From: Phycisphaerales bacterium
GTDB lineage: Bacteria; Planctomycetota; Phycisphaerae; Phycisphaerales; UBA1924
NCBI GenBank assembly: GCA_029260495.1
Contig: JAJDDD010000016.1
Location: 62,001 to 126,000 of the forward strand
DNA length: 64,000 bases
Reading direction: 5' to 3'
The position numbers and the translations under genes were made by a program. Below, in pieces: positions 8,707 to 16,633 of the stretch. The notes beneath the pieces are model-generated. The model was not told the origin of the DNA. It made no database searches and saw nothing but the letters and a program-made list of their open reading frames with translations. The first letter of the stretch is position 1; the number at the start of each line of letters is the position of its first letter.

Positions 8707-9552
8707 CTACACGATCACTCCCGGCGACTCATCCAACAAATGCCCTGCGAATCGCTCCATCTCATCGCGAAGCTGCTGGAACGACTCCAGCACATATAAA
8801 ATCGGTTGGTAGTGGTCGATCTCAAACGAAGTGTTCCGCACGACATCTAGATCAAACGGCCGCCGCTCAACCTCATCGCTGTGAATCGCGTGACGCCCTT
8901 CACCTTCACTTGAGATCAGCCCCGAGCCGTACAGTTTGAGCCTGCCGTCCTCACGAATCAGCCCAAACTCAACCGTAAACCAGAAAATACGAGCGAGCTG
9001 CTCCGTCAGCTCCGGGTCATCCGTATGCAGCGCCGCCTTGCCATACAGCTGCAGAAACTCCGCAAATACCGGATCCGCATGCAAAGGCACATGCCCGAAC
9101 ACATCATGAATAATGTCCGGCTCCGGTAGATAGTCCATGCTCTCTTTCGGCCGCACCGCAACCGTTGTCGGAAACCGGCGCTTCGCCAGAAACGCAAAGA
9201 ACGACTTCGCAGGCAGATACCCCGGCACACCGCAACTCTGCCAACCCGTCATCGGCAGGAGGTTCTCGTTCACCTCGCGCAGGTCCGGAACACGGTCGGG
9301 ACGAAGATTGATGATCTCAAGCCCGCGCAGGAACACATCCGAAGCCTCAACCTCAAGCTGCTTCATCCGCTTCTGGAACAAGATGCTCCAGACTTCGTGG
9401 TCTGTGTCTGAGTACCGGTCCCAATGCTGCGTAATCATCATTGGCTCGATGTCGATCTGACCCGCCGACAGCCCTTCGCTCGCCGCCGCTGCTTCAAGTG
9501 CTCGCTTGGCGTCGTCGGACGCGATTGCTGGATGCCAGATGCTCTGAGACAT
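8707..9552 (-). CDS. phhA: phenylalanine 4-monooxygenase
   Basis: Converts phenylalanine to tyrosine using Fe(II), a pterin and O2. The catalytic core of the aromatic amino acid hydroxylases is evident: iron ligands in HDVFGHVP (H149 and H154) and FTVEFGLI (E195), with GYLPAKSFFAFLAKRRFP upstream. I take the ATG at 9552 (281 residues) because GGGAG lies 8 bases upstream. An in-frame GTG at 9624 would add 24 residues without a good ribosome site. There is no N-terminal ACT domain, as is usual in bacterial monofunctional enzymes. It lies downstream of mreD on the same strand but about 160 bases away, so it is probably transcribed separately. Confidence 0.93.
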   Translation of the reverse strand: MSQSIWHPAIASDDAKRALEAAAASEGLSAGQIDIEPMMITQHWDRYSDTDHEVWSILFQKRMKQLEVEASDVFLRGLEIINLRPDRVPDLREVNENLLPMTGWQSCGVPGYLPAKSFFAFLAKRRFPTTVAVRPKESMDYLPEPDIIHDVFGHVPLHADPVFAEFLQLYGKAALHTDDPELTEQLARIFWFTVEFGLIREDGRLKLYGSGLISSEGEGRHAIHSDEVERRPFDLDVVRNTSFEIDHYQPILYVLESFQQLRDEMERFAGHLLDESPGVIV

Positions 9553-9712
9553 ATCAGGAACTCCCATGTTCACAATGTCGCGGTCGAAGGAGGAAAATGG
9601 CTGGTCGAAGGCGTCGTGCCTCACGGATCAACCGCCACGCCCCACATTGTATTCCGATCATGAGGCGGTGGGTTGGATGCGCCGGCATTACCCACAAGGC
9701 TTGCTGATCGGC

Positions 9713-10282
9713 TTACCCCCGTGCCCATCCCGTGCGCCGATTCGCCTGCGGAAAGCCAAAAACCGGCTTCATCCACATGAGTAGCGGCCCGAGCACCAGC
9801 GCGACAAACCCCGTATACACCGCCGACCCCATCCGCTCCAGTAGTTCCCCGCCCGCGTCGATCCCGATCAAGGGGTCATACCACGATCGCACCGCTGCAA
9901 TCGCGATCACAATCACACCCGCCATCAACGCCGCCACAACACTCAGGAACGCCAGCGTCAACAGGTTTTGCCGAATCACGAGCGTGCGCACTGTCAGCAC
10001 CGCATATCCAGCAATCACAAACCCCAACGCATACGGACCGATCAGCACAACCGCGCTCTCTCCGCTCGGCGTGGGACGCGCATGCGTCAGGTCCATCACG
10101 ATCCCCAGCGCCAGGCACGCCCAGTACACCGTCATCCGCGGCGCTGACGCACCAATAAACGCCAGCAGCACAATCACAAAGCTCGGCGCCACCCCCGCGC
10201 GCCCCAGCTCCAACCCGCCCTTCAGGCCCAGCTCAAGCCCGAAAAACACCCACGCCGCCAATAGAAAGACGAGACAGCTCAT
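9713..10282 (-). CDS. mreD: rod shape-determining protein MreD
   Basis: 189-residue polytopic membrane protein with about five hydrophobic segments, starting MSCLVFLLAAWVFFGLELGL. Sequence similarity within MreD is always weak. The assignment rests on size, hydrophobicity and position: it is the last gene after mreB and mreC, and its ATG overlaps the mreC stop by four bases (ATGA), which implies translational coupling. In the elongasome MreD bridges MreC to the RodA/PBP2 machinery in the inner membrane. Confidence 0.88.
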   Translation of the reverse strand: MSCLVFLLAAWVFFGLELGLKGGLELGRAGVAPSFVIVLLAFIGASAPRMTVYWACLALGIVMDLTHARPTPSGESAVVLIGPYALGFVIAGYAVLTVRTLVIRQNLLTLAFLSVVAALMAGVIVIAIAAVRSWYDPLIGIDAGGELLERMGSAVYTGFVALVLGPLLMWMKPVFGFPQANRRTGWARG

Positions 10283-11154
10283 CCATCCACCTCATCAGCC
10301 ACGCGCAACACCACTCGCCGAACCCGCGCCAGATCCACATCAGGCACAACATCGATCTCCATGCGCAGCGGCGCATCCTTCTTGCTCCCGACGCGCTCGA
10401 TGCGTCCAAGGACAAGCATCTGCGCCGAGTCCGGCCAGTTCGGATCGCGCAGCCGAACAATCTGTCCCACCTCAATGTTCTCAGCGTCCTGATGCACATC
10501 CCCGCGCAGCCTCCCGTCGCGCGTCGCTCGCAGCTGACACGACCACGAGCGATCCAGCCCCTCAACATGTATCACGCCGCCAATCCACCCTCCGTCCTGC
10601 TCACTCTTCCGACCGCGCGGTGAATGCGTGATCGGCAGCACCTCGGAAATACTCGGCCCAACCTTCACCACGCGCCCCACAATCTGCACGCCGTTGACCA
10701 CCGCCACCGTTTCCCTCTTCTCAACGCCGCGATCACTTCCCGCCCGCACCAGAAGCAGCCCATCGGAAGGATCGCTGCTCCGACCGACAACGCTCGCCTC
10801 GATGGGAATAATCGGCGATCCCCGATGCGCGCTCAGCCCCTGTTGCAGTTCATCGACAAGTCGTTCCAAATCAGCAATGCGCCCTTCCGCGCGGAACAGC
10901 TCTGATTGCAACACATCGCGCTCAATTTGAAGGTCAGCCAGCGCCGGATCATCAGGCAGCGTCCGCGACCGCGCCGGACGAAACACTCCGGAAACAAAGG
11001 AAAAAGTGTGCGATATTGGCGCGATCACAAACTGCGTCGGCGCCTGAAACCACTCGGCCCAGCGCGTCACCCGCGCCGGCGCGAGCGCCAGAACTGCCAT
11101 CAACGCCAGCAGCGCGATAAAGACCCGCGGTTGTGAGATCCGAGCCCTGCTCAT
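10279..11154 (-). CDS. mreC: rod shape-determining protein MreC
   Basis: 291 residues: a short cytoplasmic N-terminus, one membrane helix (about 10-30, FIALLALMAVLALAPA), a coiled-coil stretch (about 70-105, LQIERDVLQSELFRAEGRIA), then the periplasmic beta domain with ASVVGRSSDPSDGLLLVRAGSD and VEKRETVAVVNGVQIVGRVV. This is the canonical MreC architecture. It follows mreB by 23 bases and overlaps mreD by 4. It forms the periplasmic scaffold of the cell-elongation complex. Confidence 0.94.
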   Translation of the reverse strand: MSRARISQPRVFIALLALMAVLALAPARVTRWAEWFQAPTQFVIAPISHTFSFVSGVFRPARSRTLPDDPALADLQIERDVLQSELFRAEGRIADLERLVDELQQGLSAHRGSPIIPIEASVVGRSSDPSDGLLLVRAGSDRGVEKRETVAVVNGVQIVGRVVKVGPSISEVLPITHSPRGRKSEQDGGWIGGVIHVEGLDRSWSCQLRATRDGRLRGDVHQDAENIEVGQIVRLRDPNWPDSAQMLVLGRIERVGSKKDAPLRMEIDVVPDVDLARVRRVVLRVADEVDG

Positions 11155-11177: not shown

Positions 11178-12248
11178 TCAGTACTCCATGTCGTTCTGAA
11201 GCGTGTCTTTCCAGGTATCCAGGTTCTCAAGATAAATCGCGGTTCCACGCGCAACGCACGTCAACGGATCATCCGCCAGAAACACTTCAAGCCCAGTGCT
11301 TGTCGAAAGAATCGAATCACATCCGCGCAAGAGCGCACCGCCGCCCGCAAGTTTAATTCCGTTGTTCACCAGATCCGCAGAAAGCTCCGGCTCCGCCCGC
11401 TCAAGCGTGCGCGTCACTGTGTCCACAATCGCGGAAAGCGGCTCCTGCAGCGCCTCGCGAATCTCCTCGCTCGTAATCACCATCTTGCGAGGAAGACCAG
11501 AAATCATGTCCCGTCCGCGCACTTCCATCGAACGCTCTTCATCCATGGGCGCCGCCGACCCAATCTCGATCTTGATGCGCTCAGCCGTCTGCTCCCCGAT
11601 CATCAGGTTGTACGTCTTCTTGAGATGGCTGATGATCGCCTCATCCATATCATCGCCCGCTGTGCGCACCGACTCACACACCGCGATTCCCCCCAGCGTC
11701 ATGATCGCGACTTCCGTCGTCCCGCCGCCAATATCGACAATCATGGACGCCGTCGGTTCAGCAAACGGCAGCCCGGCGCCAATCGCCGCAGCGACAGGCT
11801 CCTCCACCAGATAGATCCTTCTCGCCCCCGCTCGCTCTGCTGAATCAAAAACCGCCCGCTTCTCCACCGCGGTGATCCCTGAGGGCACCGAGATCACAAC
11901 GCGCGGCCCGAAGATCCGGCTGCGACCATTCACCTTCCGAATGAAATACCCCAGCATCGCCTCCGTGATCTCGAAATCCGAAATCACGCCGTCCTTGAGC
12001 GGACGAATCGCAGAAATCGAGCCCGGAGTCTTGCCCAGCATCTCTTTGGCGACCCAACCCACCGCCATCCCGTTATTGAGCACCTGATTCGTGCCCTTCT
12101 TGACGGCAACGACACTCGGCTCATTGAGAACGATGCCCTCGCCCCGCACCGCAACCAGCGTGTTGCAGGTGCCGAGGTCGATTCCCATATCGACACTGAA
12201 CCAGCCAAGAAGATTCTCAAAGCTCACGTTTTTCAGCGTCTCCAGCAC
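11178..12248 (-). CDS. mreB: rod shape-determining actin homologue MreB
   Basis: 356 residues, close to the usual length with about 15 extra at the N-terminus. Actin-fold motifs are clear: phosphate 1 [12 protein letters not shown] (about 21), phosphate 2 [15 protein letters not shown], and the adenosine motif [15 protein letters not shown]. The N-terminus ([17 protein letters not shown]) may form the membrane-binding amphipathic helix. The start codon is GTG at 12248. It leads the mreBCD unit. Many planctomycetes lack the FtsZ division system, so a complete MreBCD set is informative about growth mode. Confidence 0.97.
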
Positions 12249-12457
12249 AGGTCAGCCTCGCCTGACGCAAGAGCGACGCTCACACGCGCGGCGCCGCTCC
12301 GTCGGGCCTTGTCATCCTTCCCTATCCTCACAGTCCACGAAGTTATCGGATATTCACTTCGGCTGCATCCACCCCATCACCCAAACACATCTCAGCGTCG
12401 CTATCGCCAGCGCGCAACAACAACCTCCTGCCCCTCACAAGCCGCCTCAGCCGCCTG

Positions 12458-12664
12458 TCACTGGCTCAACTTGATGGTGTTGGGGTCCTGTAGCGTCCAG
12501 GGCATCGAGTCCGGTGAGAGCGACGCGCCCACCTGCCACACGATCGCCACCGCTGCCACCAACGCCAGGGCAGCCAGAAACAACAGCCCCGTATAGATAT
12601 TCATCTGCGGCCCCATCGCGACGTGAGCGCCCGGGAGGTTCATCTTCAGTTGACTCATCATCAA
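12458..12664 (-). CDS. small single-span membrane protein
   Basis: 68 residues. One hydrophobic helix (about 23-44, IYTGLLFLAALALVAAVAIVW) is followed by a short polar tail (about 24 residues). I do not recognise the family. It sits 9 bases downstream of the coiled-coil gene and about 210 bases upstream of mreB, all on one strand, which suggests an envelope role in the same transcriptional unit. The ATG at 12664 has the purine-rich AAAGGGAGG immediately upstream. A second and a third Met follow within four residues. Confidence 0.68.
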   Translation of the reverse strand: MMMSQLKMNLPGAHVAMGPQMNIYTGLLFLAALALVAAVAIVWQVGASLSPDSMPWTLQDPNTIKLSQ

Positions 12665-12673
12665 CCTCCCTTT

Positions 12674-13507
12674 TTATCGAATGCGCGTCTGTACGCGGTC
12701 TCCGCGACGCACGTCAAACGACTGATTGCCCGGAATCCGCACTTCGCCGATCGCCACGTTCAAGTCCACATTGTCGACGACAAGATTCCCGAGGTACTGA
12801 TTCCCGCGGAAGATCGTCAGCTTCATGCCCTCTTCGACCCGATCCGCGCTGCCGAGGTTGACTTCCGCCAGCATCCTTCCCGCCGCGTCCTCACGAACAT
12901 CCGTGATGGTCCCGTACACCGGGCCGCGGGCTGTAGTTGTGCGCGAGCCCTGTGGGACTCCGCCTCCGCTCGGCTGCAGTGATGCAAGTCGTTCCTGGAG
13001 CGCACGGTTTGTTTCAATTGCCACCTCAAGCTCGGCGCTCAAATCGCTGATTCGATCTGCCAGCTGAATCTCCTGCTGGCTCGACCGCAACTCGCTTTCA
13101 CGCAGGCTCGAAACTTCACCATACATACTGTCCAGCAACTCCGATTGCGTCTGCGAGGTCGCAGCAAGCTGATCGATTCGCGATTGGATCGAATCCGCGT
13201 CAAGCCGTGCGGTTTTCGCGTCAGCAAGAAGCTGATTGTTCTCACGCTGAAGAATTTCCTTTTCTTTCAGCGCGTCGCTCGTCTGCTGCCGCAGCATTTC
13301 AGCCTCGGTCTGCAGCCGCGCGAGTTCCGCCGAACTGTCTGCGACGGCCTGTTGCAGCGTCGCGCTGATCGTCTCGCGCTTCATCGTCTCGTCAAGATAT
13401 TTCTCGCCGATCCGCTGCGCGTTTGTCGTCACCGCCACCGAAAGCGCCGCCAGCGCAATCGCCAGCACCGCCGCCAGGACCACCAGAATCTTTGTGACTG
13501 GATGCAC
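12674..13507 (-). CDS. membrane-anchored coiled-coil protein with MreC-like C-terminal domain
   Basis: 277 residues from a GTG at 13507, chosen because GGGAG lies 8 bases upstream. An in-frame codon at 13591 gives 305 residues. Layout: membrane helix (about 5-24, ILVVLAAVLAIALAALSVAV), a long heptad-rich coiled coil (about 40-175: LARLQTEAEMLRQQ, ILQRENNQLLADAK), a Gly/Thr-rich linker, then a beta-rich C-terminal domain with LGSADRVEEGMKLTIFRGN and YLGNLVVDNVDLNVAIGEV. The order and the LGSADRVEEGM block recall MreC. It precedes the small membrane protein and mreBCD on the same strand. I infer a periplasmic scaffold role; no named family is claimed. Confidence 0.72.
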   Translation of the reverse strand: MHPVTKILVVLAAVLAIALAALSVAVTTNAQRIGEKYLDETMKRETISATLQQAVADSSAELARLQTEAEMLRQQTSDALKEKEILQRENNQLLADAKTARLDADSIQSRIDQLAATSQTQSELLDSMYGEVSSLRESELRSSQQEIQLADRISDLSAELEVAIETNRALQERLASLQPSGGGVPQGSRTTTARGPVYGTITDVREDAAGRMLAEVNLGSADRVEEGMKLTIFRGNQYLGNLVVDNVDLNVAIGEVRIPGNQSFDVRRGDRVQTRIR

Positions 13508-14857: not shown

Positions 14858-16633
14858 CTACGCAGCATCCTTCGCTGCGTTCGATCCATCCTTATCGGCC
14901 TCTTCCCCCCGTCTCCCCAGCCGATCGCCAGAGATCGCAGCGATCAGACCCGCCAGCGTCAACCCCAGCAGCGTCCAGCCCGGCGCCTCCCCAACCAGAG
15001 CGTAGATCGTCCGCGGACCCGTCGAAGCCGCGCCCTCAATATCAAGCCGCCACAGCGCCGCGCCCGCGACGCGCTCCCTCGGGTCCACGCCGCTCTCGCG
15101 TCGGGCCAGGCGCCCACGCGAGTCAATCACAGCGGAGATTCCCGTATTCGCCGCCCGAACCATCGGAGTTCCTAGCTCGATGCACCGCCATCTCGCCGTC
15201 TGCAGGTGCTGCTCGCGTCCGCCGGTCCAGTCACCGAACCACCCGTCATTCGTGAGATTGACAATCAGATTCGCGCCCTCACCTTCGGTCGCGAGTTTTC
15301 TGCACACACCCGACATCGTCGCTTCAAAGCAGATCGGCGTCGCCACACGCACGCCGCTCGCCTTCGCGTTTTCAAGCGGAATCGTCAGCAGCCCCGCCCC
15401 GCGCCCACGCTCCAGATCAAACCGCATCCCGCCCGCGCCAATATCCAGCAGCTTCGTCTCAAGCCACTCGCTCCACGAGATGTACGGCATCACCTCGCCG
15501 AAGGGCGTCAGATGTCGCTTGTCATACCGACCACTCTGCACGCGCCCATCAACAATCACAAAGGCGCTGTTGTAGCTCGCGTCTGAGACGGGTTGCACGC
15601 CGCCATCCGGCAGTTCTTCAAATCGCAGGTTCTCCCGCGCCGACGCGCCGATCAACATCGGGATTCCGATGCTCTGTTGCAGTGCAAAAAGCTCATCCGC
15701 GAAGAAGGTTGTCGGTGTCGGCCCGCGCGATGTGCGAAATGTCAGGCCCGCCAGACGTTCGGCAGCGATCGCATCCGCATTCAGCGCCATCCCGGGAAAC
15801 ATCGTTTCGGGCCAGACAATCACATCCGGACCCAGGGCTGCCGCTTCGAGTGTGGTCTGTTTAAAATCCTCCCAATCCGCCAACTGCCGATCCGGATCCC
15901 ACGCCATCTTGTTGTCCTGCGGCACGTTCGTCTGCACCACCGCAATGCTCAGTGTTACACGATCATCAACGGCGCCGGTGCGCGCAAGTGATGAATACCC
16001 CAAGCCAGCGCCCCAGCCAACCACAATCACCACGACTGCAGCGCCGAGCATCCCGGCCCTCGCCTTCATCCCCTTAAGAACCACCGCCTGCGCAATCAGT
16101 CCGTTCACAATCGCCGTCATCCAGCTCACACCGTACGCACCAAGCACCCCCGCGCACGACGCCCAGTTCGTCCACTCGATCGTCGGATGTCCCACCAGAA
16201 ACCACGGATATCCGTAAAACACCACCGATCCGCGCACCACTTCAAGCCCCGTCCAAACAATCGGCGCGATGATCCACACCGGCGCGCGCCCAATCGTCGC
16301 GCTTCGCCGCATGCGCACAACCATCCACACGAACACTCCCGGATACACCGACAAGTACATCGCCAGCAGCGGGTAGCCAGCCATGGTCACATCCATCACC
16401 CAGCGTTGGTGAAAGAGCCACACACCAAGCCACATGAGCGAAACGATGATCCCCGCCCGCCCGCCGCGCTCGAGACTTCCCGCCAGCGTGAAGAGCGGAA
16501 CGAGCGCGACAAACGCGAGCGGCCACATATGAAAGGGTGGAAACGCGAGCGCAAACATCACCGCCGAAGCGCCCCCAAGCGTCGCCGCCGCCAGAACTGG
16601 CCGACGGTTCGCCACCGTGCGCACATTCATCAT
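14858..16633 (-). CDS. lnt: apolipoprotein N-acyltransferase
   Basis: 591-residue inner-membrane enzyme that adds the third acyl chain to lipoproteins. The N-terminal half holds several membrane helices. The C-terminal half is a nitrilase-fold domain with the catalytic triad in VWPETMFPG (E near 273), YDKRHLTPFGE (K near 370) and TPICFEATM (C near 435), plus LTNDGWFGD. A final helix (WTLLGLTLAGLIAAI) closes the protein. It is slightly longer than the E. coli enzyme. The start codon shares one base with the accD stop (TAATG), so the two are translationally coupled. Confidence 0.95.
   Translation of the reverse strand: MMNVRTVANRRPVLAAATLGGASAVMFALAFPPFHMWPLAFVALVPLFTLAGSLERGGRAGIIVSLMWLGVWLFHQRWVMDVTMAGYPLLAMYLSVYPGVFVWMVVRMRRSATIGRAPVWIIAPIVWTGLEVVRGSVVFYGYPWFLVGHPTIEWTNWASCAGVLGAYGVSWMTAIVNGLIAQAVVLKGMKARAGMLGAAVVVIVVGWGAGLGYSSLARTGAVDDRVTLSIAVVQTNVPQDNKMAWDPDRQLADWEDFKQTTLEAAALGPDVIVWPETMFPGMALNADAIAAERLAGLTFRTSRGPTPTTFFADELFALQQSIGIPMLIGASARENLRFEELPDGGVQPVSDASYNSAFVIVDGRVQSGRYDKRHLTPFGEVMPYISWSEWLETKLLDIGAGGMRFDLERGRGAGLLTIPLENAKASGVRVATPICFEATMSGVCRKLATEGEGANLIVNLTNDGWFGDWTGGREQHLQTARWRCIELGTPMVRAANTGISAVIDSRGRLARRESGVDPRERVAGAALWRLDIEGAASTGPRTIYALVGEAPGWTLLGLTLAGLIAAISGDRLGRRGEEADKDGSNAAKDAA

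Follow-up and report, generated by a model that had tools for sequence, protein, structure and literature searches.

P0001 and P0002, two neighbouring genes in the 64,000-nucleotide stretch of Phycisphaerales DNA analysed here (the window), are read as a conserved two-gene unit of the Planctomycetota that would serve as a periplasmic scaffold or tether, a reading to which we give an even chance. P0001 encodes a membrane-anchored protein with a predicted coiled-coil rod and C-terminal barrel, and P0002 a small single-span partner; P0001 and its relatives are called rod proteins below. The best reading of the history of the pair is that it was ancestrally encoded with the Rod operon and is not dependent on that operon, while its function is one that we infer. 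Most of the Planctomycetota genomes examined keep the two genes together, including where genes for cell-wall elongation are gone, and this points to an envelope scaffold of the phylum that is so far uncharacterised.

Gene order at the locus

On the minus strand of the window the genes follow in the order lnt, HEAT-repeat lipoprotein, P0001, P0002, mreB, mreC and mreD (Table 1). The first-pass annotation had assigned 12458-13507 to a 277-residue MreC-like protein with a 68-residue single-span protein between it and mreB. Both open reading frames lie there on the minus strand, but the range is that of the whole pair and the larger protein occupies only part of it. The smaller protein is confirmed as ORF 12458-12664, its 68 residues counted from an alternative TTG start at 12664. 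The ATG start of P0002 at 12658 lies 15 nt from the P0001 stop and directly behind AAGGGAGG, with a ribosome site between both genes, and an AAGGGAG-type ribosome site precedes the GTG start of P0001. On sequence conservation both are genuine genes and not chance ORFs, because relatives are kept: those of P0001 in 40 of 41 related genomes, and a tblastn search recovered those of P0002 at 24 of the 30 loci fetched. The regular mreC that had been noted further along the operon is indeed present. The scores for mreD are below cut-off, and the call is supported by its position behind mreC.

Table 1 Features of the locus; positions are counted from the first nucleotide of the window
Feature	Position	Strand	Description or basis
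lnt, apolipoprotein N-acyltransferase	14858-16633	minus	PF20154 88.9 bits and PF00795 67 bits
HEAT-repeat lipoprotein, upstream of P0001	13736-14827	minus	PF13646 91.9 bits; lipobox ASGC at 24-27
P0001	12674-13507	minus	277 aa, GTG start; membrane-anchored coiled-coil protein with predicted C-terminal six-stranded barrel
Coiled-coil rod of P0001, residues 30-174	12986-13420	minus	Predicted; model helix and heptad period
C-terminal beta-barrel of P0001, residues 198-277, contains LGSADRVEEGM	12677-12916	minus	Predicted; model
P0002	12458-12658	minus	Single-span small partner with a conserved MSQ start; 66 aa from ATG 12658
mreB	11178-12248	minus	TIGR00904 485.8 bits
mreC, regular copy	10279-11154	minus	PF04085 41.4 bits, cut-off 28
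mreD	9713-10282	minus	PF04093 19.6 bits and TIGR03426 21.7 bits, both below cut-off; position behind mreC

Behind mreD, in place of PBP2 and rodA, comes a gene for an aromatic amino acid hydroxylase of the biopterin-dependent kind (8707-9624, minus strand; PF00351, 180.3 bits). The promoter scan found nothing promoter-like on this strand, and the terminator scan picked out a single weak candidate between P0002 and mreB (12393-12409), with 8 terminator-like sites in all against 4.2 expected; these scans are not informative on transcription units. Where the pair is adjacent to mre genes it is probably co-expressed with them, and may be co-transcribed.

Predicted structure of P0001

An AlphaFold2 monomer model of P0001 was computed from 66 sequences (mean pLDDT 90.2, pTM 0.40), the alignment using 65 of 80 fetched loci after partial and near-duplicate entries had been dropped. 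In the model, residues 3-174 form one unbroken helix that includes the membrane segment, followed by a linker at low confidence (176-191) and by strands at 198-274 that make up a six-stranded barrel. A loose connection between rod and barrel would account for the low pTM of the whole model; residues 190-277 modelled alone reached pLDDT 84.5 and pTM 0.75, as a single barrel of about 80 residues. The plan of N-terminal membrane helix, long coiled coil and C-terminal domain put forward in the first-pass annotation is borne out by the model together with the heptad period of the coil. Along the coil, hydrophobicity has its peak at a period of 3.50 residues in the 52 sequences from the window's class and order and at 3.52 in 99 others; shuffled sequences lack this peak. 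By length arithmetic the rod, at ~145 residues, would measure ~21.5 nm if straight.

The length of the rod is nearly constant. It was taken between K6, the lysine before the membrane helix, and G219, the glycine of the barrel motif, and this distance averages 220.9 residues across 151 loci (SD 5.2, range 209-243) and is exactly 220 in 54 of them. Identity between P0001 and its Planctomycetia relatives is about 17-25%, and the rod length is near-constant all the same. Among 157 aligned rows, five residues (K6, G219, D222, R234 and D270) are conserved in 85% or more. Searches of Pfam and NCBIfam with P0001 gave coiled-coil noise only and no family match, and a PDB sequence search with its profile likewise gave coiled-coil noise with myosins on top.

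Affinities of the C-terminal barrel

The best profile match of the barrel is FlgT_C (PF16538), which was hit by 43 of 66 C-terminal domains of the family (E up to 10, best E 2.3e-5), but not by the C-terminal domain of P0001 itself; FlgT_C is the best named relative of the barrel. In the VIA structure comparison the N-terminal barrels of F1-ATPase aligned over 66-76 residues with Z as high as 10.0, and a 352-residue LPHT-ring chain, which we take from its length and title to be FlgT, reached Z 9.7. The predicted fold class is a common one and would say nothing on function. Foldseek returned nothing at E 0.001 or below, either with the whole model or with the domain alone; MreC is not among the best 50 Foldseek matches listed, which carries no weight against MreC.

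The comparison with MreC itself gave a divided result. PF04085 does not match P0001 at E 1, and it is absent from the 16 families matched by the 66 C-terminal domains at E 10 (0 of 66). When the barrel was aligned with the MreC of the same operons by hhalign, a likeness of 33 columns to MreC's first barrel was obtained (57.8%, score 32.7). The best of 100 column shuffles scored 20.2, and this is a weak control, as shuffling destroys the strand pattern. With the whole rod profile, hhalign gave 90.4% against MreC over 87 columns, some of which belong to the coil. The MreC-like motif in the P0001 barrel thus appears real but weak, and the P0001 barrel may be distantly related to that of MreC. Of the MreC-like plan first proposed, the membrane helix, the coiled coil and a C-terminal barrel stand, the structure prediction adds the six-stranded fold and the profile alignment the 33-column likeness; the family match and the second barrel do not, and by profile the domain is closer to FlgT_C. 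P0001 as a second MreC by family was accordingly ruled out, there being no PF04085 match and one barrel, not two.

The small partner P0002

Neither Pfam nor NCBIfam gave a significant match for P0002, and its relatives were followed by position and profile, ORFs in the fetched loci being chosen with a codon-usage picker and six-frame profile scans. Of 156 loci, 150 carry a small ORF with a single span within 330 bp behind the rod gene; such an ORF was seen in 9 of 349 control windows taken from these loci. For this count loci with identical ends were merged and those with fewer than 330 bases behind the rod gene were left out. A motif around [DN][VI]Y[TV]xLL, chosen after the sequences had been inspected, occurs in 140 loci against 2 of the 349 control windows. 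An independent test used a profile for which 27 small proteins from the window's class served as training set; it was run on 96 other loci. At E 0.1 this profile hit 88 of them, always directly behind the rod gene, with no hit elsewhere among 19261 ORFs; L070 shares its genome with L059, one of the training loci, and was dropped for that reason; targets almost identical to each other, L078 and L080 among them, were left unmerged. Five loci have no match to the profile at E 1, yet carry a small one-span ORF of acidic type behind the rod gene. Membrane proteins of this kind, 45-100 residues long, are easily missed in annotation and can be traced by synteny.

At eight loci (L060, L061, L062, L063, L064, L066, L068 and L166) which represent one part of the phylum, another type of small one-span protein, mostly acidic at its N-terminus, takes the place of P0002.

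Distribution and linkage to mreB and lnt

A profile built from the window's relatives matched 333 of the 392 genomes of the phylum at E 0.001, and a broader rod profile matched 350 of the 392 at 1e-6. What had been described as an extra component in this lineage is instead phylum-wide. A pattern scan of the genome collection (A2) gave 25 matches, none of them a relative. The genomes of families f50 and f78 that lack a rod match belong to anammox lineages, HZS_alpha being present in 7 of 8 tested genomes from f50, f78 and f95; a few f50 and f95 genomes gave borderline rod matches (1e-7 to 1e-9).

The gene mreB lies directly downstream of the rod gene on the same strand, with a gap of 253-1485 bp, in 55 of 70 genomes; these 70 are the ones whose best hits for both proteins are among the matches listed (the best 150 for each protein; 307 genomes have both). 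The remaining 15 comprise 4 genomes with the two genes apart on one contig and 11 with the genes on different contigs. Within the Planctomycetia, tblastn placed mreB behind the rod gene in 16 of 80 fetched loci. Conservation of the pair beside mreB, a question raised in the first-pass annotation, therefore extends far past the window's class, but is patchy among the window's own relatives, where 8 of the 30 loci fetched, among them the window's own, have mreB within 1.5 kb. As only these eight loci retain it, the mreB link appears to have been broken repeatedly among those relatives, with the P0001-P0002 pair left mostly intact.

Upstream, the HEAT-repeat lipoprotein gene precedes the P0001 relatives in 26 of the 30 loci fetched for the window's relatives. 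The fullest arrangement is that of L070 (lnt, HEAT lipoprotein, rod, mreB, mreC, mreD, PBP2), and L068 has a rodA-type gene added to the lnt-to-PBP2 cluster. The lnt cluster is found in 21 of 100 loci (L060-L159), and L075 has lnt beside the pair without mreB; in most Planctomycetia loci lnt is not adjacent to the pair. A lipoprotein partner would not be general, because outside the window's class other genes stand in its place, for example a PDZ protein in L074 and a shorter coiled-coil relative in many Planctomycetia.

The PDZ-domain protein of L074 (6249-7250) has a signal-like N-terminus, is encoded directly upstream of the rod gene, and belongs to a genome without mreB. Examples of the shorter coiled-coil relative directly upstream of the rod gene are L085:7224-7895, L119:3507-4157 and L079:6354-7031. 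Such relatives are about 200-350 aa long, score 40-76 bits to rod profiles and have no barrel in those inspected; two of them gave no match against Pfam. More than one rod-profile match was recorded in 41 of 95 loci.

Presence of the rod protein in relation to the Rod complex

In 26 genomes the rod protein is present and MreB is absent at 1e-50. Nine of these (G204, G240, G306, G357, G362, G381, G396, G404 and G407) are 98-99% complete, and they contain no MreB match above 56 bits and no SEDS match; the weak MreB matches are presumably of the kind expected from HSP70-type proteins. A search for MreC was without match in eight of the nine, while G381 gave a sub-cut-off fragment. The reverse is seen in genomes of anammox lineages (G159, G281, G126 and G241), which have MreB, MreC and SEDS and no rod protein. 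Since nine genomes keep the rod protein without MreB and SEDS and the sampled anammox genomes show the opposite, on gene content the rod protein is neither required by the Rod complex nor dependent on it, and its earlier description as an elongasome component is not upheld. In G158 a divergent MreB is encoded 310 bp downstream of the rod gene, and the genome has no match for MreC or SEDS. G158 and G385 (at G158:C10 and G385:C8), each with a divergent MreB beside the rod gene and without an MreC match, look like genomes at an intermediate point in the loss of the Rod complex.

The RodZ C-terminal domain (RodZ_C, PF13464) was found in 0 of 41 related genomes by a search of limited sensitivity, which was positive for 6 of 14 control genomes and missed Caulobacter and Thermotoga. 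This agrees with the statement in PMC5147048 that no RodZ is reported in Planctomycetes. HTH_25 was also tried as a RodZ marker and rejected as too unspecific, giving weak matches in 33 of the 41 genomes and in archaea too.

Proposed role and alternatives

We propose that P0001 sits in the inner membrane, with about six residues in the cytoplasm and one membrane helix, and that its heptad coiled coil of roughly 145 residues, about 21 nm if straight, would stand in the periplasm with the barrel at its far end. P0002, with one span and read as an obligate partner, would most likely pair with P0001 in the membrane. The rod may dimerise, and the barrel would connect the inner membrane with a partner located at either the wall or the outer membrane, for which the HEAT-repeat lipoprotein encoded upstream is the first candidate in the window's class. 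Where MreBCD are present, the pair would be made together with them and could help to place or anchor the Rod complex, a role to be seen against a phylum in which no RodZ C-terminal domain was found. Observed are the modelled anatomy, the pairing of the two genes, their linkage to mreB, the near-constant length of the rod and its persistence in genomes lacking MreB and SEDS; the topology, the dimer, the contacts, co-transcription and the tether role are inferred. Against the proposal count the mreB link that is missing in most loci of the window's relatives and in 15 of 70 genomes of the phylum, the anammox genomes that do without a rod protein, and the other genes that stand in place of the lipoprotein outside the window's class.

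P0001 might instead be a true accessory of the Rod complex, that is, a distant MreC relative that has lost one barrel and acts as a second scaffold binding MreC or PBP2 in the periplasm, the copies in MreB-less genomes being remnants with a changed role. The mreB linkage in 55 of 70 genomes and the place inside lnt-mreBCD-PBP2-rodA clusters are consistent with this, as are the motif shared with MreC's first barrel (33 columns, 32.7 against at most 20.2 shuffled), the 90% over 87 columns, partly coil, of rod profile against MreC, and G158, where a divergent MreB is retained 310 bp behind the rod gene with no MreC or SEDS match. We nevertheless regard this as rather improbable, given the missing PF04085 match, the single barrel, a shuffle control weakened by loss of the strand pattern, the nine rod-bearing genomes without MreB and SEDS, and the anammox genomes that have MreB, MreC and SEDS and no rod protein. 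A different possibility is that the pair serves lipoprotein or outer-membrane maintenance, as a partner of Lnt or a TolA-like linker of inner and outer membrane, with the mre operon merely a convenient transcription unit. The presence of lnt close to the pair whether mre genes are there or not (the cluster in 21 of 100 loci, and L075 without mreB), the HEAT lipoprotein between lnt and the rod gene in the window's class, and a plan that may be likened to that of TolA point in this direction; lnt is, however, away from the pair in most Planctomycetia loci, and the phylum-wide linkage to mreB would be left unexplained, so that we consider this unlikely.

The scaffold or tether reading also has a bolder form, in which the pair is a core part of envelope organisation or division: a strut of fixed length, spanning the periplasm, that would have assumed a RodZ-like link between inner membrane and wall, and kept organising envelope geometry after MreBCD and SEDS were lost. 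We think it improbable in this form. How planctomycetes are shaped and divide without FtsZ, and in many cases without MreBCD and SEDS, is treated as an open question in PMC5147048 and PMC6952346. For Planctopirus limnophila, PMC12283558 lists both mreB (Plim_2620) and mreC (Plim_2621) as non-essential, and deletion of mreB is stated to be without phenotype (PMC6952346). The pair is not described in the article passages covered by our literature search, which included PMC6952346, PMC10632474, PMC12283558, PMC5147048 and PMC8567305; a prior mention is possible. Kept by most genomes of the phylum, located in the mre operon of many and surviving loss of that operon, the pair is a concrete candidate for envelope organisation, and one amenable to deletion in the model strains now available.

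Comparison with known systems

TolA has a plan of membrane helix, long helix and small end domain, to which that of P0001 may be compared. RodZ is a one-span protein tied to MreB, and has a cytoplasmic HTH_25 domain ahead of its membrane helix; P0001 has about six residues ahead of the predicted helix and no HTH match, and RodZ_C (PF13464) does not match it. With the N-terminal barrel of F1-ATPase alpha and beta the P0001 barrel would share a common fold class, and a functional link is not expected. The FlgT C-terminal domain (PF16538) is the best profile match of barrels of the P0001 family, though not of P0001's own domain, and FlgT itself is a soluble protein of the flagellar ring that has neither a membrane helix nor a long coil. 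MreC shares with P0001 the N-terminal membrane helix, the coiled coil, a C-terminal six-stranded barrel and the mreB neighbourhood, but has two six-stranded barrels (PMC8804602) against the one predicted for P0001. P0001 differs further from MreC in its coil of about 145 residues, and in occurring both alongside a regular MreC and in genomes that lack MreC.
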